Positions 4,403 through 22,611 of a stretch of 23,888 bases of DNA are shown here, piece by piece (within the stretch, counting starts at the first letter, position 1; the number at the start of each line of letters is the position of its first letter). This stretch comes from a virus. The stretch is from the IMG/VR virus record IMGVR_UViG_3300048446_000878, positions 1 to 23,888 of that record. One strand, given 5' to 3'. The translations under genes and the position numbers were made by a program. The notes below the pieces were generated by a model. It ran no database searches and had not been told where the DNA came from. It worked only from the letters and a program-made list of their open reading frames with translations.

Positions 4403-6273
4403 TGACTTGGGAAACAGGAAATCAATTATCTAGGGCTGAAGAAAAAAACTTCAACGAGAAACTCGAAGAAATGAAAGGGTTTATAGAAGAAAAGGAAGCT
4501 AAGATTTTACTATACAAGTTCTTGAGGGAGAATATCACATTTACTGCAGATTTAGTTAGCGGAGTCCAGCTTTTTCCTTTTCAGCATATGGCTATCAAGG
4601 CTATGTTTGAAACAGATTATTTTATGGGGGTCTGGTCTCGAGGTATGAGTAAGTCATTCACTACTGCTATATATGCATATTTAGACGCTATAATGAATCA
4701 AGGAGTCGAAATAGGAATACTCTCAAAATCCTTTCGGCAAGCCAAGATGATATTCAAAAAAATTGAAGATATCGCCTCGAAGCCTGGAGCGACATATCTA
4801 GCTCAATGTATAACGCATAAATCAAAAAGCAACGATGAATGGTTGCTGGAGATCGGCAGCAGCAGAATCCGAGCTTTACCTCTTGGAGATGGAGAAAAGC
4901 TTCGAGGGTTTCGTTTTCATAGAATTATTATAGACGAGTTTGCCCTTATGCCCGAGCGTATTTATAATGAAGTTATAATACCGTTCTTGAGTGTAGTGGA
5001 AAATCCAACTCAAAGGGAAGCTTTGTTTAACCTTGAAACAAATCTAATTGATCAAGGAAAGATGAAGGAAGGAGAAAGACATGTTTGGCGAAACAATAAG
5101 TTAATCGCTCTTTCTTCAGCGAGCTACAAGTTTGAATATATGTACAAAGCTTACGAGCAATTTGAAGATTTGATTCGCCAAGGAAGCTCAAAACAAAGTG
5201 ATGCGCACAGGGTTATCATGCAGTTTAGTTATGACTGCGCACCAAAGCAGTTGTACGACCAAAATCTTTTGGATCAAGCGAAATCAACAATGAGTCAAAG
5301 TCAATTTGATAGAGAATTTGGTTCGATTTTTACTGACGACAGTAGTGGATATTTTAAGACTTCCAAGATGGCTTCGTGCACTTTGAAAGACGGAGAGACT
5401 CCAACTATTGAGGTGCGCGGGGAGGTTGGGCAAAAATATATTTTGGCTTTTGATCCGAGCTGGGCAGAAAGTGAAAGCAGTGATGACTTTGCTATGATGG
5501 TGCTCAAGCTCAACGACGAAAAGAAAATCGGTACCGTTGTGCATAGCTACGCTTTAAGTGGCACAAATTTAAAACAACATATTTTTTATTTTTATTATTT
5601 ACTTACTCATTTTAATATTGTATCTATTGTTGGAGATTATAATGGAGGAGTGCAGTTTATTAATGCTTGTAATGAAAGTAGTTTGTTCAAGAAAAATAAA
5701 ATGAATATAAAATGCTTAAATACTAACTTTGATGACCTAGAACATTATCAAGAAAAAATAATAGAAGGAAAAAAAGAATATAATTTAGAAGATAAAACGA
5801 TTTGTTATTTGCGTAAACCTACTAGTCAGTGGATTAGGTTGGCGAACGAGTTGCTTCAGGCCAACTTTGATCATCATCGAATATTCTTTGGAGCAAGAGC
5901 AATTGATGATGCTTATAACGAACAAAGAAATAAAAAAATACCAATTCAGGATTTAAAATTTTTAAGAACATCTCAAAGTTTAGAGCGCCAAACAAATGCA
6001 GCGAAAATGATTGACTTTGTTGAGCATCAATTTGATATGATGAATCTTATTAAAACTCAATGTTCTTTAATTCAGATATCTACTTCTGCAGGAGGAACTC
6101 AAACGTTTGATCTTCCTCCTAGTTTAAAGCGCCAAACCGGCCCAGAAAAAGCAAGAAAAGATAGTTATTCTGCATTAATACTTGGCAATTGGATGATTAA
6201 ACTTTACTATGATATAATGAACTCTAAAGTTAATAACGTGAATTATACTTTTACTCCCATGTTTATAAACTAA
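4402..6273 (+). CDS. Terminase large subunit
   Basis: This 623-residue packaging motor has an ATPase domain followed by a nuclease. The adenine-binding region is at 57-68 (LFPFQHMAIKAM). The Walker A motif of terminase type, WSRGMSKS, spans 78-85, and Walker B with catalytic Glu, RIIIDEF, spans 174-180. The RNase H-like nuclease begins at 347 (ILAFDPSWAE, Asp351), with a second acidic site at VGDYNGG (Asp412) and a likely third near RKDSYSALILGNW close to the C-terminus. It translocates DNA into the prohead and cuts concatemers. The length and motif order match large terminases of the T4 gp17 type. The ATG overlaps the stop of the nuclease gene (TAATG). The next gene is the prohead protease, with no portal between. 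Confidence 0.93.
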   Translation: MTWETGNQLSRAEEKNFNEKLEEMKGFIEEKEAKILLYKFLRENITFTADLVSGVQLFPFQHMAIKAMFETDYFMGVWSRGMSKSFTTAIYAYLDAIMNQGVEIGILSKSFRQAKMIFKKIEDIASKPGATYLAQCITHKSKSNDEWLLEIGSSRIRALPLGDGEKLRGFRFHRIIIDEFALMPERIYNEVIIPFLSVVENPTQREALFNLETNLIDQGKMKEGERHVWRNNKLIALSSASYKFEYMYKAYEQFEDLIRQGSSKQSDAHRVIMQFSYDCAPKQLYDQNLLDQAKSTMSQSQFDREFGSIFTDDSSGYFKTSKMASCTLKDGETPTIEVRGEVGQKYILAFDPSWAESESSDDFAMMVLKLNDEKKIGTVVHSYALSGTNLKQHIFYFYYLLTHFNIVSIVGDYNGGVQFINACNESSLFKKNKMNIKCLNTNFDDLEHYQEKIIEGKKEYNLEDKTICYLRKPTSQWIRLANELLQANFDHHRIFFGARAIDDAYNEQRNKKIPIQDLKFLRTSQSLERQTNAAKMIDFVEHQFDMMNLIKTQCSLIQISTSAGGTQTFDLPPSLKRQTGPEKARKDSYSALILGNWMIKLYYDIMNSKVNNVNYTFTPMFIN

Positions 6274-10773: not shown

Positions 10774-11268
10774 ATGAGCGAATTATCTGAAAATGACACT
10801 AAAAAAGTGAAATCCGAATTATTTCATATTTGGAAAAAAGCAAGAATCATGTATGAGTCTTTAAAGGAAAAGCCTTCTCTCGACGATTGGGTCAAGAAAA
10901 ATATAACTCAAGCTTACGAATTAATTGACGAAGCTATGAGATTTATTGAATACGAGGAAATATTTCCCAATAAAAAAGAAGAAACTCCTGAGAGCGAAAA
11001 GAATAATTTCTTATCTAATCAAGACAAAAGGTTTCCAGTTCCTGTAGCTCAAGAAGGAGGGGATCAATTTGTTACTCGCTGTATACTTGATGCCAACATG
11101 AAAAAAAGGTACCCTGTTCAGTCTGATCGCTTTGGAGCTTGCATGTCAATTTATAACGACAATCAAAAAGACTCCGCTGACCAACAGAATCCAGGAGAAA
11201 AATTTAAAGACCCCATGGAGGTTAAAGAACCAGAGCTGCCTGACCCTGTTAAGCCAATCCTTCCGTAA
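10774..11268 (+). CDS. Hypothetical protein at the end of the head module
   Basis: This 164-residue protein has a helical N-terminal half (about 1-65) with a W-V-K-K-N-I-T-x-A-x-E-L-I-D-E-A segment that resembles small helical proteins encoded near phage structural genes. A charged linker follows. Then comes a short Cys-containing part (FVTRCILDANMKKRYP, FGACMSIYND; Cys residues at about 106 and 126), then a Pro-rich tail. No catalytic motif is seen. An AGGTG site lies 11 bases before the ATG. The last 20 bp overlap, tail to tail, the end of the Clp gene on the other strand. Confidence 0.45.
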   Translation: MSELSENDTKKVKSELFHIWKKARIMYESLKEKPSLDDWVKKNITQAYELIDEAMRFIEYEEIFPNKKEETPESEKNNFLSNQDKRFPVPVAQEGGDQFVTRCILDANMKKRYPVQSDRFGACMSIYNDNQKDSADQQNPGEKFKDPMEVKEPELPDPVKPILP

Positions 11269-13735
11269 TATTATATACAATAGAATCTTTCAAGACTGAA
11301 AATTTTATTTCTTGATTTTCTTTTAATTCTTTACTTAAAATTAGTTTAGATAGTTTATTTTCTATATTCTTCTGAATTAATCTTTTTATTGGTCTTGCTC
11401 CCATTTTTTCTTCTTCAGCTTTCTCTGCTATAAGCTTGCATACCTTAGGGGTAATAGAAAGCTTTATTTTCTTGCAAGAAAGTTTACTTGATAAGTGATT
11501 GATTTCTATTTTTGTTATATCTTGAATATCCTTTGTAGAGAAGTTTTTAAATAAAATTATTTCGTTTAATCTATTTAGGAATTCAGGTCTAAAGAAAGTC
11601 TTTAGTTCTTCTTTAAGCTTTTCCATGTCTTTCGTGGGGCTCGATTTTTCCCCAAATCCGATGTATGGTTTTGCAACTTTTTCACTACCAATATTACCTG
11701 TTAATATAATTGTGCAATTAGCGAAGTTAATTTTTCTTCCCGAATTATCTGTTACCGATCCTTCTTCTAAAATTTGCAGTAATATGTTTAAAACTTCTGG
11801 GTGGGCCTTTTCGACTTCGTCAAATAGAACAACGCTGTAAGGATTTCTTCTGACTTTCTCTGTCAACTCTCCTCCTTCTTCGTAACCGACATAGCCAGGG
11901 GAAGCCCCAATCAACCTGCTTGCAGATATTTTTTCAGAAAATTCACTCATATCTATTTGTATAAGCTTGTTTTTATCTCCGTATATAAACTCAGCTATAC
12001 ACTTTGCGGTGTAAGTTTTTCCGGTCCCGCTAGCTCCGACAAGAAGAAAGCTTCCTACTGGCTTGTTGCTGTCCTGAAGTCCTGACTTGGATCTAAGTAT
12101 GCATTCTGAAATTTCTTGCAACGCTTCTGTCTGACCTACGATTTTTTTATTTAGTTTACTGAATAGCCCGAGCATTTTTTCTGAATCTTTCTTTGAGATA
12201 TCTGAAATAGGGACTCCGGTTCGAGAGGATACTACCTCATATATATCTTTTTTCTTTACAGATATTTTATACTTCATTGTTTTTTTCGCCCATTTGGATA
12301 TAATCTCGTCATACTTTTCTAGCAAGTCAAGCTGTTCGTCTTGCAGTATCGAGTAGTGAGAGCTAAAATCTTCAGAACTTAAGCTTGATTCTTTTAAGGC
12401 TAGGTCTTCTAGCCTCTGTTCAATATCTTTTGCGGCCTGAGGTCTTTCAATGTTTTTTATTTTAACTTTTGATCCAGCTTGATCAAGTATATCTATTGCT
12501 TTATCTGGGAATTGTTTGTCGAGTACATATCTAGAGGTCAAGTCTATCACTAAATCTAACACTTCTTCTGGGTAATGAATGCTATGAAATTCTTCGTATT
12601 TATGCTTGATCCCTTTTATTATTTCCCTAGCTTCTTCTTTTGTTGGCTCGATGACCTTTACAGCTTGAAACCTTCTGTCTAGAGCTCCATCTTTTAATAT
12701 TGATTTCTTGTATTCATCTTGCGTAGTGGCCCCTATGCACTTTATTTCTCCTCTTGCGAGCAAAGGCTTTAGTAAATTCGCGGCATCCATACTTCCTTCT
12801 GCACTTCCTGCCCCAACTAAGGTATGAATTTCATCAACAAAAAGAATAATATCTTTATTTTTTCTCACTTCTTCAATAATTAATTTCAACCTTTCTTCAA
12901 ACTGCCCTCTGTATTTGGTTCCAGCTATAAGGGATCCTAGGTCCAGGGAATATATAATTTTGCTAATAAGAAAATCAGAACATTCTCCTTTCGTTATATT
13001 CTGCGCTAGCCCTTCAACTATAGCTGTTTTTCCTACCCCAGGCTCTCCTAAGAGTACGGGATTATTTTTTGTTCTCCTGCAAAGTATTTCACATACGTCA
13101 TATATCTCAGAGTCTTTTCCTATAATACTATCGAACTTTCCCTGCAAGGCCATTGCGTTTAAGTTTGTTGCAAATTTTTCTAGGTTTTGAATTTTTGGTT
13201 CTTTTGGGGGTATTTTGGTTTTTATGGGCCTTGTTTTTTTGTGTCTTTCTGCGGTAGAGTCTTTTGATATATGAAGATATTCTCTTACTTGAGATATTAT
13301 ATCATTTTCTGAAGCGTTAAATGATTCAAAGTATTCGGGTATATTAGATTCTTCGTACTTTAATAAAGCTAGTAATATATGCTCTATTCCGACATATTCA
13401 TGTCCTAATTTTTCGGCTATAGAAGCTGATACTTTTAGCACTAAGTGAAAGTGTTCGTCATACACTGAGTCTACATCCTCCGGAGAAAAGGACTGAATGC
13501 TTTCGTTTTCTGAAACAATATACAGAGATTTTTCTATTTTTTCTTTTAGTTTTTCGTCATCAATTTGTAATAAAAATAGTATCTCGCTAAGGATTCCAGC
13601 GTTCAGGCTTACCATTCCGAAAAATAAATGATCTAGGGTCACATACTCATTTCCGTACTTTTGGGCAACTTTTTTAGCTTCATTGATTGCCTGCTGTGCT
13701 CGCGGCGTAAAGTTTGGTTTTGGCGTCATCTTCAT
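11249..13735 (-). CDS. ClpC/ClpA-type AAA+ unfoldase
   Basis: This 828-residue Hsp100 protein is complete. Two N-terminal Clp repeats (about 8-60 and 92-150) serve adaptor and substrate binding. The first AAA+ module has Walker A GEPGVGKT (230-237), Walker B ILFVDE (297-302) and the arginine-finger region DGALDRRF (349-356). A short middle helical region (about 430-490) follows, too short for the long ClpB coil, which excludes ClpB. The second module has GASGTGKT (567-574), VVLFDE (635-640) and sensor 2 GARPIKR (779-785). A tripeptide IGF at 692-694 sits where ClpC/ClpA bind ClpP, so docking to a host ClpP peptidase is likely. No ClpP gene is present in the window. It begins 16 bases after the polymerase stop, so it is probably the last gene of the replication operon. 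Confidence 0.88.
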   Translation of the reverse strand: MKMTPKPNFTPRAQQAINEAKKVAQKYGNEYVTLDHLFFGMVSLNAGILSEILFLLQIDDEKLKEKIEKSLYIVSENESIQSFSPEDVDSVYDEHFHLVLKVSASIAEKLGHEYVGIEHILLALLKYEESNIPEYFESFNASENDIISQVREYLHISKDSTAERHKKTRPIKTKIPPKEPKIQNLEKFATNLNAMALQGKFDSIIGKDSEIYDVCEILCRRTKNNPVLLGEPGVGKTAIVEGLAQNITKGECSDFLISKIIYSLDLGSLIAGTKYRGQFEERLKLIIEEVRKNKDIILFVDEIHTLVGAGSAEGSMDAANLLKPLLARGEIKCIGATTQDEYKKSILKDGALDRRFQAVKVIEPTKEEAREIIKGIKHKYEEFHSIHYPEEVLDLVIDLTSRYVLDKQFPDKAIDILDQAGSKVKIKNIERPQAAKDIEQRLEDLALKESSLSSEDFSSHYSILQDEQLDLLEKYDEIISKWAKKTMKYKISVKKKDIYEVVSSRTGVPISDISKKDSEKMLGLFSKLNKKIVGQTEALQEISECILRSKSGLQDSNKPVGSFLLVGASGTGKTYTAKCIAEFIYGDKNKLIQIDMSEFSEKISASRLIGASPGYVGYEEGGELTEKVRRNPYSVVLFDEVEKAHPEVLNILLQILEEGSVTDNSGRKINFANCTIILTGNIGSEKVAKPYIGFGEKSSPTKDMEKLKEELKTFFRPEFLNRLNEIILFKNFSTKDIQDITKIEINHLSSKLSCKKIKLSITPKVCKLIAEKAEEEKMGARPIKRLIQKNIENKLSKLILSKELKENQEIKFSVLKDSIVYNITEGLA

Positions 13736-13751
13736 TGATTTACACTCTAAA

Positions 13752-16310
13752 TTATTTAACGTCCGACATTTTCATATATATCTTTTCATTCATTATATTT
13801 AACGAATCAAGGAAGACTATATCTTCTCCTTTCCTTCCAAAGGCTACAACTATGCTCTTTTTAAGCGGGGTTTTATTTTTTGAATCAAAATATCTGTCAT
13901 AAAAATTCCCTCTTCTTGAATTTAAAAGCATTGCGTCGTATCTTCCAAACTCATCCGCTATTGAAAGCTTCATGTATTTATTTCCGTTTCTTGAGGTTCT
14001 TTTTATGCAATCTTCTACGACGCCTATGAATTTTCCTTTTTCATCTGAGTCCATAGCCCTTAAGTCTCTAGAATCTTTTAAAGAGTTATAACTGTCCACG
14101 AAGCAACTTTTTAGATTAGAGCTATGACTGTAGCCGAGAAGCTCTGTTTCAAAATACCAGTTGGCAAAGTCTTCGTATTCTTTATTTTTATCATAAATTG
14201 ATTTGTATACATCATACTTTTTCTTAAAGGTTTGAAATCTCGATTCCTTCATTAAGGGTTTTCCGTCGTCTCCTACTAATTCGCCTTTTTTTGCATCAGC
14301 TATACAATTTAAGAGTTTGAATTTATATTTTTCTCCAAGCAAAATAAAGTTTCTTTTCTCTCGATCTGTCAATTGATTGAACGCCTGGGCTTCTAGCACC
14401 ATAAGCGATCTGTTTGAACCTTTACTTTCAAGTGCTCCCGCTTGAATTAATGCACTTAACACTCCAATATTTAGACCTGCCTGTTTTGCAGCTAGGAATA
14501 TATCATACTTCGTTGGGGTATCGCTTGACCTAAAATCTTTAAGAGATTTTAGAGACTTTTCACTAACCCCTTTTATGCTGTTAAGCCCAAATCTTATATT
14601 TTTCCCCTCTATGGAAAAATCCATTCCAGATTTTGCGAGGTCCGGTGATAATAATTTCACACCAAACCTAGAAAGTTCTTTAGAAACTTTAGATATTTCT
14701 TCTTGAGGCGCGGGTTCATATTTTGTCATCTTTAATAGAGAAAGAAAGAATTGCTGGGGATGCTTGAACTTTAAGTGTGTCGTCCATGCAGCCAAAACCG
14801 AATAGCTGATTGAGTGAGACTTATTGAAAGAGTAATTTGCGCTATCTTCTGCAACTCTCCACAGTATGTCCCCAACTTCTTTCGGCAAATCTTTTTCTTT
14901 AACTTTGTCTTCAATTTTAGCTTTCCATTCAGGCATTTGGTCTATTTTCTTTTTTCCAACAATTCTCCTTAATTGCTCAGATTCATCAAGAGTAAATCCA
15001 ACTTTAACTGCCATTTGCATTAATTGTTCTTGATATAGCGGTATTCCTCCTGTGTATTCCAGAATATCTGTGAAAAACTCATGAATTACTTGAGCCTCTC
15101 CTGTGTCTCGGTAAGTTGAATAATCCCCAAGAAAGTCAAGAGCTCCAGGCCTTCCTATTGCAACTACAGCACTTAACTCCTCAAGGTTTCTTGGTTTTAC
15201 TTTTTTGCAAACCCTAAAGTTTGTATCAGATTCCAACTGAAATAATCCGTGTGGCGCGGTCAGGGATTGAAGCGGCTCATATATTTTTTCGTCACTTAAA
15301 TCTATATCTGAGCAATTAATATTTAAACTCTTGCACACATCATAAATAACACTCAATGTTCTTAAGCCAAGAATATCAAACTTAACCATTAGCTCTGAAA
15401 CCCAATTCATATCGTAGCCAGTAACTAAAGCTCCATCATTGGAAGTTTGGATTGGGCATATGTCTGTAATTTTATCAAAACAAATCGCTATTCCGCTTGG
15501 ATGAACTCCAGTGTTTTTATTTAAACCTTCGAGCTTCAAGGCTATGTTGAAAACTTCCGCGTTGCTTGAAGACCAGTCAACAAATTTTTCACTTTCTTCT
15601 AGGGCTGATTTTAGCGGAACCACGACTCCAAATTTCTTAGGAATAGTATTGCTTATTTCGTTAACTTCTTGTTCTGAGAATTCTCCCACGATTTTACCGC
15701 ATTCTTTTATGCATAATTTACCACTTAAGGTATTTAAGGTTAAAATTTTAGCTGTTCTCCCTGGATGCTTTTGTTCTATGTAGTTTATAACCTCGGCTCG
15801 GCGCTCATAGGCGATATCATTATCTACGTCTGCCAAAAGGCTTCCGTCTAGATATGTAATTCCATCTTTATTTATTTTTCTCGCCCTGCTCTTAGAGACA
15901 AACCTCTCGAAGAATAGATTATATTTTACGGGGTCAACATTTGTAACTCCAATTAAATACAAAACCAGAGAGCCCGCAGCACTCCCTCTTCCTGGGCCTG
16001 TTGGAATGTCATTTTCGTGACAATAATTTAATATGTCCCAGTTTAAAAGAATATAATCTATAAAACCAAGCTCTTCCAGGATACTTAGCTCTTGTTTTGC
16101 TCTCTCAAAGTAATCCTGCTTGTTCTCTAGTGAGTCGATTCCTCGGTCATATACGCCCTTGTGACAGAGTTTCCTTAAGAAGTCGAAGTTTGATATGTCT
16201 GGGCTTGCGTCCAGCATTTTATAGTACTTTTTTTCGATCTTAATATTTGGTAGTCTGACTCCAGGAGGAGTACAGTCTTCATAGTGTGAAAATTTCTCTG
16301 TAAAATTCAT
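13752..16310 (-). CDS. dnaE: DNA polymerase III alpha, polymerase part (no PHP domain)
   Basis: The 852-residue protein covers palm, thumb, fingers and OB fold of DnaE. The N-terminus (GVRLPNI) corresponds to the segment that follows the PHP domain in E. coli alpha. GPGRGSAAGS is at 105-114. The catalytic Asp pair is DVD (161-163) and the third Asp is in KFDILGLRTL (Asp312). IPLYQEQLMQMA (423-434) and SFNKSHSISYSVLAAW (494-509) are fingers motifs, and an OB fold occupies about 720-830 (SRNGNKYMKLSIADEFGRYDA). These are DnaE, not PolC, signatures. The ATG at 16310 overlaps the exonuclease stop as TAATG, with GGGAG upstream; an in-frame ATG at 16328 is less likely. The PHP domain is encoded separately, two genes upstream. 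Confidence 0.93.
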   Translation of the reverse strand: MNFTEKFSHYEDCTPPGVRLPNIKIEKKYYKMLDASPDISNFDFLRKLCHKGVYDRGIDSLENKQDYFERAKQELSILEELGFIDYILLNWDILNYCHENDIPTGPGRGSAAGSLVLYLIGVTNVDPVKYNLFFERFVSKSRARKINKDGITYLDGSLLADVDNDIAYERRAEVINYIEQKHPGRTAKILTLNTLSGKLCIKECGKIVGEFSEQEVNEISNTIPKKFGVVVPLKSALEESEKFVDWSSSNAEVFNIALKLEGLNKNTGVHPSGIAICFDKITDICPIQTSNDGALVTGYDMNWVSELMVKFDILGLRTLSVIYDVCKSLNINCSDIDLSDEKIYEPLQSLTAPHGLFQLESDTNFRVCKKVKPRNLEELSAVVAIGRPGALDFLGDYSTYRDTGEAQVIHEFFTDILEYTGGIPLYQEQLMQMAVKVGFTLDESEQLRRIVGKKKIDQMPEWKAKIEDKVKEKDLPKEVGDILWRVAEDSANYSFNKSHSISYSVLAAWTTHLKFKHPQQFFLSLLKMTKYEPAPQEEISKVSKELSRFGVKLLSPDLAKSGMDFSIEGKNIRFGLNSIKGVSEKSLKSLKDFRSSDTPTKYDIFLAAKQAGLNIGVLSALIQAGALESKGSNRSLMVLEAQAFNQLTDREKRNFILLGEKYKFKLLNCIADAKKGELVGDDGKPLMKESRFQTFKKKYDVYKSIYDKNKEYEDFANWYFETELLGYSHSSNLKSCFVDSYNSLKDSRDLRAMDSDEKGKFIGVVEDCIKRTSRNGNKYMKLSIADEFGRYDAMLLNSRRGNFYDRYFDSKNKTPLKKSIVVAFGRKGEDIVFLDSLNIMNEKIYMKMSDVK

Positions 16311-16954
16311 TATACTTCTATCTCCCATATCATTTTTTTAAAAACTTCGAAGTTGACTTTTATGTCGTAAAGTGCGTCATGCAGCTTACTTTCGTCAAAA
16401 TCTATATCAAAATCCTTGCAGCACTGTTTTAAATTGCAGGACAATCCTCTTTCTATTAAGTGATTTAATCTATATTGCCAAGCTAAAAAATCATCGTCTT
16501 TATCAAACCTTATTCTTTTCTTTAAGGCTTTTGCTAAACACAAAGTATCTACTAGGTTTTCTGTATAACTAAAGTCGGGCTTTAATTTTGGATTAATAAG
16601 CTTTCTGTGAATGTTGTGCATGTAGACATCAAAGCCAAGCAAGTTGTGGCCGATTTTCAAGTATGAGTCATCATACAAATATTTCTCTAAGTGATCCAAG
16701 GCTTTTTTTGGGCAAGAAGCTTTTTTGCTGTACTTTGCTTTTGTGAACCCCGTGATTTTTGCTGCTTCTGGAGAGACGTTAAGCTCGTCCCATTTTAGCC
16801 AATAATCTTTTGACTCTACAACTTTATTGTCCTCTATAACTAAGAAGGCTAGTTGCCAAGGCTTATTGTGAGAAACGAGATTGAGATTGCATGTCTCGTA
16901 ATCAAATAATAAGTATTTTTTATTTTTTTGAAATCTAAGTAGTGATTCTTTCAT
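16310..16954 (-). CDS. dnaQ: DEDDh 3'-5' exonuclease (DnaQ-like proofreading subunit)
   Basis: This 214-residue protein carries all DEDDh motifs: FDYETCN (Asp18, Glu20), IGHNLLGFD (Asp109) and LHDALYDI (His192, Asp197). The layout is that of the epsilon proofreading subunit, about the usual length of the catalytic domain, with no long C-terminal clamp-binding tail. It would remove misinserted nucleotides for the phage polymerase. The ATG at 16954 overlaps the PHP gene stop as ATGA, with a GGAAAG site upstream; a longer TTG-started frame from 16981 is possible but unneeded. The stop overlaps the polymerase ATG. Placement between the two halves of DnaE is unusual. Confidence 0.9.
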   Translation of the reverse strand: MKESLLRFQKNKKYLLFDYETCNLNLVSHNKPWQLAFLVIEDNKVVESKDYWLKWDELNVSPEAAKITGFTKAKYSKKASCPKKALDHLEKYLYDDSYLKIGHNLLGFDVYMHNIHRKLINPKLKPDFSYTENLVDTLCLAKALKKRIRFDKDDDFLAWQYRLNHLIERGLSCNLKQCCKDFDIDFDESKLHDALYDIKVNFEVFKKMIWEIEV

Positions 16955-17709
16955 TTTGATTCTTTCCAGCTTTGAAAGCAAAATTCACTGCTTCCAAAGT
17001 GGTCTAAGTTTGGTTTTGATAATGTTTTGTTTCCGAAAGTTCTGCCTGTTATGCACTTGTATGTCTGGAGGGCGGCTGAGTCTGATCTATTTTTGTAATA
17101 AATGCTTTTTGTCAGTTCTGTTTTTATTTTTTTCTTATAGGCATACTCTCTTACTTTTTTAGATATAAAATCATCGAAAGGCAGACCATTGTCTTCAATG
17201 AAGAAAGTTGGCTCGCAGAAAGAAAAATTTGGAGTACAGCTTGAAAATTTCATTAAGTTGTTAAATATAAAGCTATCGTAAAAAGGTATAGCTAATAGCA
17301 AGTCTTTATTGCTCCAGTGTTTTTTTAAAATTTTATCGTCTACGCATTTGTGATTTTTCGTAAATGCTTCACTTGAAATTGCGTTTAGCAGCTTGCACCC
17401 TTTTGAAGTTTTTGCGAAGATGATAATTTTATGAACAGTCTTGACCGACTCTTCCTTTGGGTCTATTGATGCATCTTCTCTCATGTCTATTCTTAATCCA
17501 AAGATTAGCTTTAAGCTTAAATTCTCCGCATTTTTTTTAGCCTGCAGAAACCCTGTTAAGGAGTCTTCTACTAGAACAACTTCTTTTAGAGAATTTTCTT
17601 TGGTTATAGAGAAGATGCTGTCGCTTCCACCCTCTTTATCTTTGTCTGGACTGTCTAGGGTTAAGATGCTTTTTCCTATAGAAAAATGACTTTTGAATAA
17701 TGGTATCAT
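16951..17709 (-). CDS. Degenerate PHP domain of DNA polymerase III alpha, separate protein
   Basis: This 252-residue protein can be followed along the E. coli alpha PHP domain: IPLFKSHFSIGKSIL (opening motif), VVLVEDSLTGFLQAKKNA (the TDH...G...F motif), LKLIFGLRIDM (the KPI-G-E motif), VHKIIIFAKTSKGCKLLNAIS (the LLA-x-N-x-x-G-Y-x-N-L motif), SDSAALQTYKCITGRTF (the D-A-H-x-x-x-x-I motif) and a last FGSSEFCF. Most metal-binding His/Asp/Glu positions are replaced, so phosphatase or nuclease activity is not expected; a structural role that docks the exonuclease is inferred. The start is set at 17709 because a sigma-70 promoter ends 8 bases before this ATG; a longer frame to 17781 would run through the promoter. 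The stop overlaps the exonuclease ATG. Confidence 0.75.
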   Translation of the reverse strand: MIPLFKSHFSIGKSILTLDSPDKDKEGGSDSIFSITKENSLKEVVLVEDSLTGFLQAKKNAENLSLKLIFGLRIDMREDASIDPKEESVKTVHKIIIFAKTSKGCKLLNAISSEAFTKNHKCVDDKILKKHWSNKDLLLAIPFYDSFIFNNLMKFSSCTPNFSFCEPTFFIEDNGLPFDDFISKKVREYAYKKKIKTELTKSIYYKNRSDSAALQTYKCITGRTFGNKTLSKPNLDHFGSSEFCFQSWKESK

Positions 17710-17781: not shown

Positions 17782-19080
17782 TTAATTAAGTATGTCTAGC
17801 AGTGGGGTTCCGTCATGAGCTACTTTAAACGGTCTTCCCGACGGAGATGTTTGTATTTGCTCTAAAGGGAGTCCCATCGCATAGGCTATCGTTGCGTTTA
17901 AAGAAGCGGGGTCGATGAATTTGCCTTCTTTAGGGTTTCTTCCTAATTCGTCCATTTCTCCATAAGAGAAGCCCCCTTTTACCCCTCCCCCAGCAAGAAA
18001 AGCTGTGAATCCGTACGGCCAGTGATCTCTTCCATTGCGAGGATTGATTTTTGGAGTTCTTCCAAATTCCGAAGTAAGAACTACCATTGTTTCTTTTAGT
18101 AGCCCCCTCATTTCTAAGTCGATAAGCAATGCGCTGAGAGCTTTATCCATATCTGCACAATTATCAGAAACAACTTCAAAATTATTGTCGTGAGTGTCCC
18201 ACCCTCCTCTACTTACCTCTACATAACGAACCTGGTTCTCGATCAACCTCCTGGCGAGTAAGCAGCCTTGTCCAAAATTTGTTTTTCCATAAAGCTCATG
18301 CATGGAATCTGGCTCCAATCCTATATCGAAAGCCTTAAGGTCTTCACTTTTCATTAGTTTTATTGCGTCTTGATACAAATCTGAATAAGCCCTGACCTGT
18401 TTCTGGTTGTATTGACTTAAGTATGATGCATTCATTTTCTGGGCTAAAGCAAGCCTTCCTCCGAACCTAGATTGATCTAGATAGCTTGCAATTTTACTAT
18501 TTGCAAGTCCTGCAGATGGATTACCAATAGGTAAAGGTCCATACTTTGATTCAAGAAAGCCCGCTCCGGCGGGGTTAGCTCCAATTTGGACATTAGATGG
18601 AATCGTGCTATTAATATTCCCGGAAAGCTTAGATACCCAGCTTCCGAAAGTTGGGTGAGCGATCGTTCCCCTTTTAAGATAGCTTGTGTGCATTAAATAG
18701 CTAGCTTGCTCGTGAGCTCCTTGACTGGACATCATGGTTTTTATTACTGAAGCGTTATGCATGAGCTTTGCTGTTAACGGAAGATTCTCCGAGAGAATAA
18801 TTCCATCTGCAGAAGTAGATATTGACCTTGTTGGACCTTGTATTTCAGGCGCGCCAGGATTAGTTCCAAAAGTGTCTAGGTGTGACATTGCTCCCGTCAT
18901 ATTTAGGTAGATTACGTAACGAGCAGAAGCGACGCGAGTCCCGGTTTCTAGCCCGGCAGCTTCTTGGTGGATATACCCGCCAACCATTGGTAGAAGACCT
19001 ACTCCAAGACAAGCTTTCGCTGCACTAGCCGCAAACTCTCTTCGGCTTAATTCATTTAATTTTTTAAGGTCTGACTTCAT
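17782..19080 (-). CDS. DUF1501 family protein, Tat-exported
   Basis: This 432-residue protein has a twin-arginine signal: SRREF at 12-16, then a hydrophobic stretch (17-36) and an AA-containing cleavage area. The mature part shows family hallmarks: LNMTGAMSHLDTFGTNP (N-terminal metal-site region, GGPSHLDTF in most relatives), GAHEQASYLMH, GGWDTHDNNF, and TSEFGRTPKIN followed by GRDHWP. The family is sulfatase/alkaline-phosphatase-like in fold and common in Planctomycetota, Verrucomicrobiota and Lentisphaerota; the activity is not well known. Being exported folded, it would act in the host periplasm or at the cell surface, perhaps altering envelope glycans or sulfated polymers (inference). It lies 6 bases after nrdB and should be co-transcribed with it. 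The length is normal, with no sign of decay. Confidence 0.88.
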   Translation of the reverse strand: MKSDLKKLNELSRREFAASAAKACLGVGLLPMVGGYIHQEAAGLETGTRVASARYVIYLNMTGAMSHLDTFGTNPGAPEIQGPTRSISTSADGIILSENLPLTAKLMHNASVIKTMMSSQGAHEQASYLMHTSYLKRGTIAHPTFGSWVSKLSGNINSTIPSNVQIGANPAGAGFLESKYGPLPIGNPSAGLANSKIASYLDQSRFGGRLALAQKMNASYLSQYNQKQVRAYSDLYQDAIKLMKSEDLKAFDIGLEPDSMHELYGKTNFGQGCLLARRLIENQVRYVEVSRGGWDTHDNNFEVVSDNCADMDKALSALLIDLEMRGLLKETMVVLTSEFGRTPKINPRNGRDHWPYGFTAFLAGGGVKGGFSYGEMDELGRNPKEGKFIDPASLNATIAYAMGLPLEQIQTSPSGRPFKVAHDGTPLLDILN

Positions 19081-19086
19081 TGAGGC

Positions 19087-20100
19087 TCAAAAGTCGTCTT
19101 CGAGGGAGCCGCTTTGTTGATATTCTCTAACTCTTCTTTCAAAGAAGTTTCCCATCGCTTGAACATCTACCACTTCACCCAACCAGGGAAACGGGTTTTT
19201 ATCGCTTGGAAACCTGTAATCTAATCCTATAGCTTCAAGTCTTCTATTGCCTATATAATGCATGTAATCCACAAACATTTCCGCATTAAGCCCTAATATG
19301 CCAGTCGGCAAAACGTCGTGAGCGTAAGCTATTTCTAGTTCTACAGCTTTTTTCATATGCTCAACGAACTCGTTTTGCATTTTTTTTGTCCATATCCCTG
19401 GCTCCTGATCTATAATAGTATTAATTAAGTAGGTTCCGAATGCAATATGAGAGCTTTCGTCCCTTAATGTATACTTTATTTGATCAGAGATTCCTTGAAG
19501 CTTATTTTGTCTTCCTAGGGCAAGAAGCATTGCGAAGCCGCTAAAAAAGAAAGTTCCCTCGCAGACTATCCAATATGTTAAAAAATTTCTTAATATTTCT
19601 TGCTTTCCTTTTACGGAGTTTGCGTCAAAGTCCTGAGAGCCGATATCATTCGTTATCTGCATTAAAAAGTCATCTTTAGCTTTTATGCTCGGAATTGTCT
19701 CGTATGCGTTAAAAACTTCTTCAATATCTAAATCTAAGCTATCGCATACGTAAACTACCGTAAGATTGTGAAGGCTTTCTTCAAAAGCTTGCCTAAGTAT
19801 ATACTGACGGCATTCAGCGTCCGTAACGTAGCGAAAGGCAGATAGCAAAAGATTATTACCAACCAGAGACTCAGATCCAGCAAAAAACCCAAGGCAGCGT
19901 TTAACAAGAAGTTTTTCATCGTCTGTAATTTCATTGTTTTTCCATTGTTTGATGTCGTTTTGCATTGAGATTTCTGTGGGCATCCAGTTGTTTGCGCAAC
20001 TTTTTAAAAATAAATCCCAAGCATATTTATGCTTATGCGGAAGTATTCTATTTACGCCCGCTATATTTTTGGTTAAAAGTTTTCCTGTTTTATTTTCCAT
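19087..20100 (-). CDS. nrdB: Ribonucleotide reductase small subunit, class Ic-like (no radical Tyr)
   Basis: This 337-residue beta subunit generates the radical or oxidant used by NrdA. Metal ligands are in place: Glu77 (SESLVGNN), Glu108 and His111 (EESLHNL), Glu181 (CEGTFF), Glu215 and His218 (RDESSH). The position four residues after His111, where class Ia enzymes carry the radical Tyr, is Val115, and the first ligand is Glu, not Asp. Both traits are those of class Ic enzymes such as that of Chlamydia, which use a Mn/Fe centre. The C-terminus (REYQQSGSL, then acidic DDF) has the conserved Tyr for radical transfer and the tail that docks on NrdA. A promoter places transcription start at the ATG, so the message should be leaderless. 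Confidence 0.92.
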   Translation of the reverse strand: MENKTGKLLTKNIAGVNRILPHKHKYAWDLFLKSCANNWMPTEISMQNDIKQWKNNEITDDEKLLVKRCLGFFAGSESLVGNNLLLSAFRYVTDAECRQYILRQAFEESLHNLTVVYVCDSLDLDIEEVFNAYETIPSIKAKDDFLMQITNDIGSQDFDANSVKGKQEILRNFLTYWIVCEGTFFFSGFAMLLALGRQNKLQGISDQIKYTLRDESSHIAFGTYLINTIIDQEPGIWTKKMQNEFVEHMKKAVELEIAYAHDVLPTGILGLNAEMFVDYMHYIGNRRLEAIGLDYRFPSDKNPFPWLGEVVDVQAMGNFFERRVREYQQSGSLEDDF

Positions 20101-20106
20101 AATTAT

Positions 20107-20135
20107 AGTATATCATAGTAATATATCGAAGTCAA
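20107..20135 (-). promoter_or_regulatory. Sigma-70 promoter of nrdB-DUF1501
   Basis: On the minus strand, TTGACT (20135-20130), a 17-base spacer and TATACT (20112-20107) are followed after only 6 bases by the nrdB ATG at 20100. The transcript would begin at or next to the ATG. It sits in the 51-bp gap after nrdA, so nrdB need not be read from the nrdA promoter. Confidence 0.85.
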
Positions 20136-20151
20136 CCTCTAAAAGGATCAA

Positions 20152-22611
20152 TTATTGACAACTCTCGCAAGACCCTCCGTTCTTTAAGGCTTCGATGCTG
20201 CACGCAGAAGCTTCTGATTCGCTTCCCGAATCTCCTGTTGATTTTTCAACTTTTGACGCAGCTCGATTTCTAAGGTAGTAAGTCGTTTTTAGTCCGGCTT
20301 CCCAACAGGCCATATATATATCATTTAAATACTTCAAAGATGTTCCTTTATTGTACAAATTAAAACTTATAGCTTGGTCAATCCATTTTTGCCTGACTGA
20401 GTTGCAATCTATCAACTTGAACATATCTCTATCGAAAGCTGTTTTATACTTTAGTTTTATCCACTCAGGTATCTCTCCGTTCAGTGAAGATAAATCTCCA
20501 TCGGAGTCTTTGACTAGTTTTGCATTGATAGGATTCCATAAACCTTCTTTTTTCATGTCGTTTATAAAATGTTGATTGGTAATATAAAAATTACCACTCT
20601 TATTCTCGTAAACAAACAGTACGGAGAAATTAGGCTCTATGCTTTGCTCGACTCCATTAATATAACCTATTGTTGCTGTAGGAGCGATAGCCATAACATT
20701 TGAGTTTCTCATCCCAAATTCATTTACATGAATTCTCACTTTTGGCCACTCTTTAAGGGTTTGACCTTTTCCTGTTAAAGGTTTACCCGTAACCGATTCA
20801 CTCGGAACTTTTTGCTTGCCCCTATAAACCATGAGGTTGTTATAAGAATCAATTGGAAATACTCCTTGACTCCAGAGCGAACCTTCGTAGGTTTTATATT
20901 GACCTCTCTCTTCAGCTAATAAAGAACTAGCATAAATCGCATGCATAGAATAAAACTCAAATAATTTATCATTAAACTCTGCAGCTTCGTCGCTATCTAT
21001 GTTTATATTAACTTTGTGAAGTACATCGTGAAGAGCCATCATACCTAACCCAATAGGACGATGTCTTAAATTGCTATTTTCTGCCTCTTTTGTTGGGTAA
21101 AAGTTAAGGTCTACGACATTATCTAAAGCTCTGATTGCTGTGTGAATGGTTTTTTCCAGCTTTATGTAATCAATATTTGTTTCGTCTTCGTTAATATGAT
21201 TTAGCAGATTTACAGAGCCAAGGTTGCACACGGCTGTTTCTCCAATTTCTGTTTTATACCCTTTGTCGTACTTTGAAGCTTTTGTGTGAAGTGTGATTTC
21301 TGTGCACAAATTACTACTATGAACTACTCCTTCATGCTGGTTTGTGTATCTCATATTGCACGGATCCTTAAATGTACTCCATGGGTGAGAGGTTTCAAAC
21401 AAAACTTTGAGCATTTTTTTCCAAAGCTCTTTTGCGGGAGTAACTCGGTAATTTTTAATTAAACCTTTTTCTGCTTGGTCACAAAGTTTGTTGTACTTTC
21501 TGTCGAACTCAGTGCCAAAGCAATCGTGTAAATCAGCTTCTTTTGGGTCAAAAAAATACCAAACATCTTCATTCTGAACCCTTCTCATGAATTCATCTGG
21601 AATCCACGAGGCGGTATTCATGTCGTGACATCTTAACCTGTCGTCTCCTGTATTCCTGCGAAGATTTAAAAAATCTTCAAAATCTAAATGCCAGGGCTCT
21701 AGGTATGCGCATCCTGCCCCTGGTCGCTTGCCTCCCTGATTGACAGCTACTAGTAAATCATTGTAAATTTTTAACCAAGGAATTAAGCCTCCAGATATTC
21801 CATTTGTGCCTTTAATGGGCGAGCCTGCAGACCTAAACGGGGTTACGTCAAAACCAAGGCCTCCAGCGTACTTGCTTTTCCGGGCTTCCTGCCATGCTCC
21901 ATCAAAAATTCCATCAATACTATCGTCAAAAGTGTTTAGGTAGCAAGAGCTTAATTGAGAATGAGTTGTTCCGCTATTAAATAAAGTTGGGGTAGAGGAT
22001 GTATACAAGAACTGGCTGAACAGATCATAAAACTTAATCGCCCATTCTTCTTTGTTTTTTTCATTGATTGATAATCCCATAGCAACCCTCATCCAGAAAC
22101 ATTGCGGAGCTTCCATTATTTTATCGTCATGCCTAATGAAATACCTGTCAGATAAAATCTGAATGCCTAAATATTTAAAATCTTCATCTCTTCTTATTTT
22201 TATTGCTTCTGATAGCTTTTCGAGATCAAAGTCTAGCATTTTTGGATTAAGCTTTTCTAGTTTTACTAATTTTTTTATATTTTGTATGAAGCTTTTCCTG
22301 TATTGCAGTTTAAATGTGTCTGAGTCTACTCCTTCTTTGAATACTTCTTTGTATACAGTATTTAACAATAGTCTCGCTGCTACAAAACTGTAATTTGGTT
22401 CTTTTTCAATCTTCTCTCTCGCTGAAAGAATTAAGGCCGTGTCTATTTCACTGGTTGTTATTTTGTCAAACAACTGTAATTGTGCGTCGAGAAGAACTTC
22501 GCTAACAGAGGCATCTTCTATTCCTTTGCAGGCTCGCTCCACGTTTGCGTTAATTTTTTCTACCAAAAAGTCCTGAAGTCTGCCGTTTCGTTTTTTTACT
22601 TTTATATTCAT
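20152..22611 (-). CDS. nrdA: Ribonucleotide reductase large subunit, class I
   Basis: This 819-residue catalytic alpha subunit reduces ribonucleotides to deoxyribonucleotides. One ATP-cone occupies about 1-95 (KVKKRNGRLQDFLVEKI at the start), giving overall dATP control. The active site has Cys223 (SSCYLNTF) and Cys462 (AVCNLGS) as the redox pair and NLCTE (Asn434, Cys436, Glu438) with the thiyl Cys. The radical-transfer Tyr pair is in LKTTYYLRN. The C-terminus ends GGSCESCQ, the swinging Cys pair reduced by thioredoxin or glutaredoxin. All key residues are present. The gene precedes nrdB by 51 bp and has its own promoter. Phages often carry it to supply dNTPs from host ribonucleotides. Confidence 0.96.
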   Translation of the reverse strand: MNIKVKKRNGRLQDFLVEKINANVERACKGIEDASVSEVLLDAQLQLFDKITTSEIDTALILSAREKIEKEPNYSFVAARLLLNTVYKEVFKEGVDSDTFKLQYRKSFIQNIKKLVKLEKLNPKMLDFDLEKLSEAIKIRRDEDFKYLGIQILSDRYFIRHDDKIMEAPQCFWMRVAMGLSINEKNKEEWAIKFYDLFSQFLYTSSTPTLFNSGTTHSQLSSCYLNTFDDSIDGIFDGAWQEARKSKYAGGLGFDVTPFRSAGSPIKGTNGISGGLIPWLKIYNDLLVAVNQGGKRPGAGCAYLEPWHLDFEDFLNLRRNTGDDRLRCHDMNTASWIPDEFMRRVQNEDVWYFFDPKEADLHDCFGTEFDRKYNKLCDQAEKGLIKNYRVTPAKELWKKMLKVLFETSHPWSTFKDPCNMRYTNQHEGVVHSSNLCTEITLHTKASKYDKGYKTEIGETAVCNLGSVNLLNHINEDETNIDYIKLEKTIHTAIRALDNVVDLNFYPTKEAENSNLRHRPIGLGMMALHDVLHKVNINIDSDEAAEFNDKLFEFYSMHAIYASSLLAEERGQYKTYEGSLWSQGVFPIDSYNNLMVYRGKQKVPSESVTGKPLTGKGQTLKEWPKVRIHVNEFGMRNSNVMAIAPTATIGYINGVEQSIEPNFSVLFVYENKSGNFYITNQHFINDMKKEGLWNPINAKLVKDSDGDLSSLNGEIPEWIKLKYKTAFDRDMFKLIDCNSVRQKWIDQAISFNLYNKGTSLKYLNDIYMACWEAGLKTTYYLRNRAASKVEKSTGDSGSESEASACSIEALKNGGSCESCQ

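Follow-up and report, generated by a model that had tools for sequence, protein, structure and literature searches.

In bacteria and in most phages, the PHP domain and the polymerase of a DnaE-type replicase share one chain. This is the case in the E. coli Pol III core, in which a single-chain DnaE alpha subunit with an inactive PHP is accompanied by a separate DEDDh proofreader, DnaQ epsilon, that grips the clamp via a clamp motif and PHP via a C-terminal helix (PMC4703070). In PolC of low-GC Gram-positives, PHP, exonuclease and polymerase instead form one chain, with the exonuclease inserted within the PHP domain (PMC3919608). Cyanobacterial DnaE is encoded by two genes, intein-split and spliced. 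Here we describe a viral sequence from IMG/VR, 23,888 bases long (IMGVR_UViG_3300048446_000878; analysed at its full length and called the window below), on whose minus strand three replicase genes spanning 17709-13752 encode, in order and each in its own frame, a PHP protein, a DEDDh exonuclease and a DnaE-type polymerase. The locus shares with the E. coli core a DnaE polymerase, a PHP that appears inactive and a separate DEDDh proofreader, but its alpha is not one chain and its exonuclease has neither of epsilon's two attachments. With PolC it shares the three components and an exonuclease nearest in sequence to the PolC exonuclease domain, but here the exonuclease comes after the end of an unbroken PHP, and the polymerase belongs to the DnaE type.

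Isolate phages carry parts of this arrangement. Krampusvirus (Microbacterium phage Krampus and relatives) likewise has neighbouring but separate genes for a PHP of 345 aa and a polymerase of 767 aa, the break falling in the PHP-palm linker region, and a 2020 survey noted two Pol III alpha-related genes in this genus where one is typical (PMC7302621); however, no exonuclease lies between them, the PHP metal ligands are complete and the PHP retains the linker segment (its profile match runs to 288-297). In Pbunavirus (PB1-like; Pseudomonas phage Victoria) and Wifcevirus (Escherichia phage ECML-117), a DEDDh exonuclease gene stands directly before, and just overlaps, a DnaE gene with a degenerate PHP, but there PHP is fused to the polymerase and the exonuclease precedes both. 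What is new at the present locus is a DnaE replicase in three genes; its parts are known, the PHP/polymerase split from Krampusvirus and an exonuclease before a fused DnaE from PB1-like phages. The remark of the initial annotation that it was aware of no described phage replicase with this order holds for the three-gene order, which was not found among the isolates examined, and fails for the PHP/polymerase split without an exonuclease, which Krampusvirus already has. The available portions of two surveys of bacterial C-family polymerases describe no such split (PMC3919608, PMC12926913), nor, as far as the available text of these C-family diversity papers and of one on phage polymerase exchange extends, is such a three-gene arrangement described (PMC3919608, PMC12926913, PMC11348598).

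The three genes and their products

The PHP gene (16951..17709, minus strand; 252 aa, ATG start) ends in a 4-base ATGA (16951..16954) that also holds the start of the exonuclease gene (16310..16954, minus strand; 214 aa, ATG start). The exonuclease stop in turn overlaps the ATG of the polymerase gene in a TAATG (16308..16312), and this third gene (13752..16310, minus strand; 852 aa) covers palm, thumb, fingers, HhH and a probable OB domain. Coordinates and domain matches agree with the initial annotation, which had read three overlapping frames in this order and had placed the cut between the end of PHP and the start of the palm. Indeed, the window PHP matches the NCBIfam DnaE model PRK05673 at positions 27-250 (E 3e-9) and the polymerase takes up this model again at 284-1025, leaving a gap in the DnaE profile at ~251-283.

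That the 252-residue protein is a PHP of the DnaE kind, a point on which the annotation had staked its reading, is borne out by profile and fold alike. The Pfam PHP match of the window protein is marginal (9.2e-5, under the curated cut-off), and PHP is matched in 74 of 86 relatives, at best with 2e-15. An AlphaFold prediction from 86 sequences is confident (pLDDT 90.5, pTM 0.88), and when its fold was searched against the PDB the first 18 matches were all DnaE/Pol III alpha chains or alpha-epsilon chimeras (E 2.6e-9 to 2.8e-6, TM up to 0.74), with the DnaE PHP domains of E. coli, Taq and M. tuberculosis among the matches. Nothing of the domain is missing by the time the exonuclease starts: its last strand and the stretch that leads into the palm are both present. 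Given the consecutive matches to one model and the DnaE PHP fold matches, the PHP protein and the polymerase, judged by sequence and predicted fold, together make up one DnaE, divided at the PHP-palm linker (profile ~251-283). As to DnaE membership, the DnaE-type N-terminal domain is supplied by a separate protein rather than by the polymerase chain itself.

The PHP metal site is degenerate. Aligned to intact phage PHPs, the ligand positions read F, S, D, R, Y, S, Y, and only one histidine ligand position is partly retained; the N-terminal segment aligns loosely, so that the pairing of its ligands is uncertain. Compared with the nine-ligand set HHDHEH[C/H]DH of an active PHP exonuclease (M. 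tuberculosis DnaE1 type), most positions are replaced clade-wide. As far as the alignments can tell, the PHP of this clade has lost most of its metal site yet stays under selection; since most of the site is lost, it is probably a structural subunit. PHP has been described as a structural element whose integrity sets Pol III stability and activity, and loss of PHP ligands as accompanying a separate exonuclease (PMC3666897), a rule that fits the degenerate PHP and separate exonuclease seen here.

The exonuclease matches Pfam RNase_T (2.8e-11), its nearest solved structure by sequence is a PolC exonuclease domain (4e-9), and its DEDDh residues D18, E20, D109, H192 and D197 are invariant in 186 sequences. 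The RNase_T match stops at residue 205 of 214, and the protein ends right after the catalytic domain. For the polymerase, Pfam returns DNA_pol3_alpha (2.5e-62), finger (1.3e-32) and HhH (3.8e-15), PHROG 405 is matched with 3e-160, and the DnaE match begins ~31 residues into the chain. The palm carboxylates D161, D163 and D312 (numbered from the ATG) are essentially invariant, being kept in at least 184 sequences. The OB signal is weak: the DnaE profile match reaches ~1025 of 1146, the second PDB domain is sub-threshold and Pfam gives no OB match. Searched against the PDB, the clade polymerase profile finds Taq DnaE at 1.6e-112 and E. coli DnaE at 8e-96 but PolC only at 4e-7, by which measure the polymerase is DnaE-type, not PolC-type. 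Of the earlier description as a PolC-like gene order with DnaE motifs, the DnaE half therefore stands; the PolC half does not, the exonuclease coming after a complete PHP.

Recurrence, junctions and phylogeny

Scans with the polymerase, with PHP and with alignments of each yielded 266 IMG/VR or metagenome-assembled genome (MAG) loci, including the window's own, which represent 185 distinct sequence sets. All three genes are present in 256 of the 266, and in every one of these 256 complete loci they run PHP, exonuclease, polymerase on one strand with no fusion; the remaining 10 miss a gene, mostly where the contig breaks off within the stretch. Searching onward from the deepest branch added 79 new loci, some on contigs already counted, of which 75 are complete and 75 of 75 again show this order. 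The ratio of nonsynonymous to synonymous substitution rates (dN/dS) between close pairs is 0.01-0.11 for each of the three genes. With the three genes and their order repeated across hundreds of contigs drawn from numerous metagenomes, and dN/dS well under 1, the three-gene split is far beyond chance or sequencing error; the three-piece DnaE-type phage replicase of the initial annotation is supported, and the search it suggested for the gene order in other phage contigs finds that order.

The three-gene replicase belongs to a large group of uncultured water-dwelling tailed phages. No close relative was found among isolates, whose best polymerase matches are ~28-33% identical; BLAST of the window PHP and exonuclease against isolate phages gave no match, and neither terminase nor capsid searches brought the phage close to an isolate. 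Twelve of the loci come from MAG contigs whose bins are labelled Halobacteriovorax, Flavobacteriaceae, Verrucomicrobiales and others; phage contigs may have ended up in those bins, and the labels do not fix the host.

Gene order is constant, and the junctions vary. Among the 185 distinct loci, PHP and exonuclease are adjacent or overlapping (<=30 bp) in 97 and more than 300 bp apart in 81, whereas exonuclease and polymerase are adjacent in 89, 31-300 bp apart in 87 and farther apart in 9. Intergene distance ranges from -43 to >2000 bases with changing frame relation, and the length of the PHP/exonuclease overlap differs from relative to relative. The genes inserted between PHP and exonuclease are unrelated. 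They include a SET-domain protein (Pfam 5.5e-12), seen at 4836-5354 of locus L003 and in about 13 relatives, and, by inspection only, HNH and other homing-endonuclease-like, cupin-like, radical-SAM-like and GMP-reductase-like genes. Such variety of junctions and inserts indicates that the genes are truly separate. Most of the 31-300 bp gaps between exonuclease and polymerase are filled by a conserved open reading frame of 60-75 residues (L091 7390-7605 and about 74 relatives). In L038 (5239-8580), the open frame that holds the polymerase runs to 1114 codons and takes in, upstream and in frame, a foreign segment of ~250 residues.

Among the phage DnaEs examined, the majority form a single chain that includes PHP. 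In a polymerase tree (unrooted, with long outgroup branches), the three-gene clade forms one group with full support and a long stem, away from Krampus. Given this separate position, the Krampusvirus split counts as independent of the three-gene split, which puts the tree-based count of independent PHP/polymerase splits at two or more. Two further viral loci, L400 (5908-9479) and L416 (5953-11453), have a DnaE split into PHP and polymerase with no exonuclease detected between them, several genes intervening in L416. Splits at other points also occur, inside the polymerase in KLEB27-3, phiT1 and Cuke and within the palm in ATCC 8014-B2. Similar PHP residues had hinted at a close kinship between the clade and Rhizobium phage RHph_N1_15, which the tree does not support; the DnaE of that phage (L284 1957-5364), whose PHP also looks degenerate, carries a C-terminal uracil-DNA-glycosylase-family domain (Pfam 6e-10).

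The proposed replicase core and its alternatives

We propose that these genes encode the replicase core of an uncultured tailed-phage clade, in which DnaE is cut at the PHP-palm linker, a dedicated DEDDh exonuclease is encoded between the halves, PHP is structural and proofreading takes place in trans; we put the probability of this reading at roughly 0.78. A single ancestral DnaE chain would have been cut at the linker, and the PHP protein would re-associate with the polymerase beside the thumb, restoring the DnaE shape. As a structural subunit and scaffold, PHP would then help to place the exonuclease, which would proofread for the polymerase in trans within one complex of the three proteins. 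The wider gene content of ten large contigs (122-211 kb) is consistent with this: a DnaB-type helicase occurs in 10 of 10 and RNase_T, once each, in 8 of 10, while searches for PolA and PolB found neither in any of the ten (0/10; these contigs may be incomplete), and hence no competing replicase or proofreader is seen.

Several observations weigh against the proposal. The window exonuclease has no clamp motif of the form Q..[LM][FLYM] and no C-terminal PHP-binding tail, and so needs a contact other than those of epsilon. The frequent inserts between PHP and exonuclease imply that strict translational coupling is not required and that tight co-translation is dispensable; the fixed stoichiometry offered by the initial annotation is likewise not supported. 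An in-frame PHP-exonuclease translation of locus L028, with the stop read as glycine, was predicted with pLDDT 93.6 but pTM 0.62, leaving the relative placement of the two domains uncertain. Furthermore, a bacterial beta clamp was searched for in the large contigs and found in 0 of 10. It is possible that the dead PHP, as a free structural subunit, docks the tail-less exonuclease through an interaction that resembles neither the DnaE-epsilon tail nor the PolC insertion, which would be a third way of joining a proofreader to a C-family polymerase; this we advance tentatively, with appreciably less than even confidence.

The cargo genes that often sit between PHP and exonuclease, the PHP metal site that is not intact and the docking left unsettled by the PHP-exonuclease model would also suit a PHP and exonuclease that act independently of the polymerase, for instance in repair or directed at the host, and merely share its operon. 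We consider this improbable, because PHP resembles the DnaE PHP specifically, in sequence and fold, and so completes a polymerase that has none, and because all three genes co-occur without exception in complete loci (256/256 and 75/75). A split at the gene level only, with the pieces rejoined into one chain by a split intein, ribosomal frameshifting or readthrough, is a considerably more remote prospect. It has a precedent in the intein-joined split DnaE genes of cyanobacteria (PMC3919608), and overlaps as short as ATGA and TAATG could favour frameshifting; however, the PHP fold covers the 252-residue protein end to end and only ~31 residues precede the DnaE match in the polymerase, leaving no room for intein halves, and the range of gaps and frame relations described above means that no conserved frameshift can fuse the genes.

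The initial annotation had also offered the locus as an intermediate that shows an exonuclease being built into a PHP polymerase. The PolC exonuclease domain as closest PDB sequence match of the exonuclease and the weak best match of the PHP profile, to PolC (E 0.03), point in that direction, but an exonuclease that follows a complete PHP, a DnaE-type polymerase and a clade that is one long-stemmed group among mainly fused outgroups point away from it, and we hold a step toward PolC to be very doubtful. Indeed, with outgroup phage DnaEs mostly single chains, the three-gene split looks derived, provided that the ancestor was a single-chain DnaE, which the prevalence of that form in bacteria suggests; the tree itself is unrooted. 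Frameshift errors or decay of a polymerase gene have nothing in their favour beyond the stops themselves, and are next to inconceivable given relatives in hundreds of contigs with differing gene boundaries, unrelated junction inserts and strong purifying selection. As none of these relatives is fused, the concern that the stops were a sequencing artefact is removed as far as relatives can remove it.

Neighbouring genes and the purpose of PHP

Directly downstream of the polymerase lies a gene for a ClpA/ClpB-type AAA+ unfoldase (11249..13735, minus strand; AAA_2, ClpB_D2-small and Clp_N in Pfam), which is found on the same strand within 100 bp of the polymerase in 59 of 140 relatives with enough flank and is a possible operon partner of the replicase genes. 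Matches to phrog_168 in the large contigs resembled T4-type clamp loaders and were rejected as such: the best is RuvB-like (RuvB_N, RuvB_C) and the others fit the Clp gene in length and place. One phage of the clade encodes a RuvB-like AAA+ protein that has the RuvB winged helix (L448 1492-2430) and is easily mistaken for a clamp loader. On the other side of the replicase genes, the window encodes a DUF1501 protein (17782-19080; Pfam 1e-103), unusual for a phage and matched in 14 of 140 relatives, and class I ribonucleotide reductase genes, NrdB and NrdA (19087-22611), adjoin the replicase genes.

The recurrence of PHP/polymerase splits in at least two tree positions suggests that the PHP-palm junction is permissive. 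Bacterial DnaEs retain PHP even when it is catalytically inactive, and mutations in it make the polymerase less stable (PMC3666897), so that the structural role of PHP has been hard to separate from that of the rest of the chain. With a dead PHP as a protein of its own, mixing purified subunits would allow the polymerase to be compared in the presence and absence of PHP and of exonuclease; given the absence of the epsilon tail, the hold on the exonuclease should be new. The clade thus provides a natural test bed for the purpose of the PHP domain.

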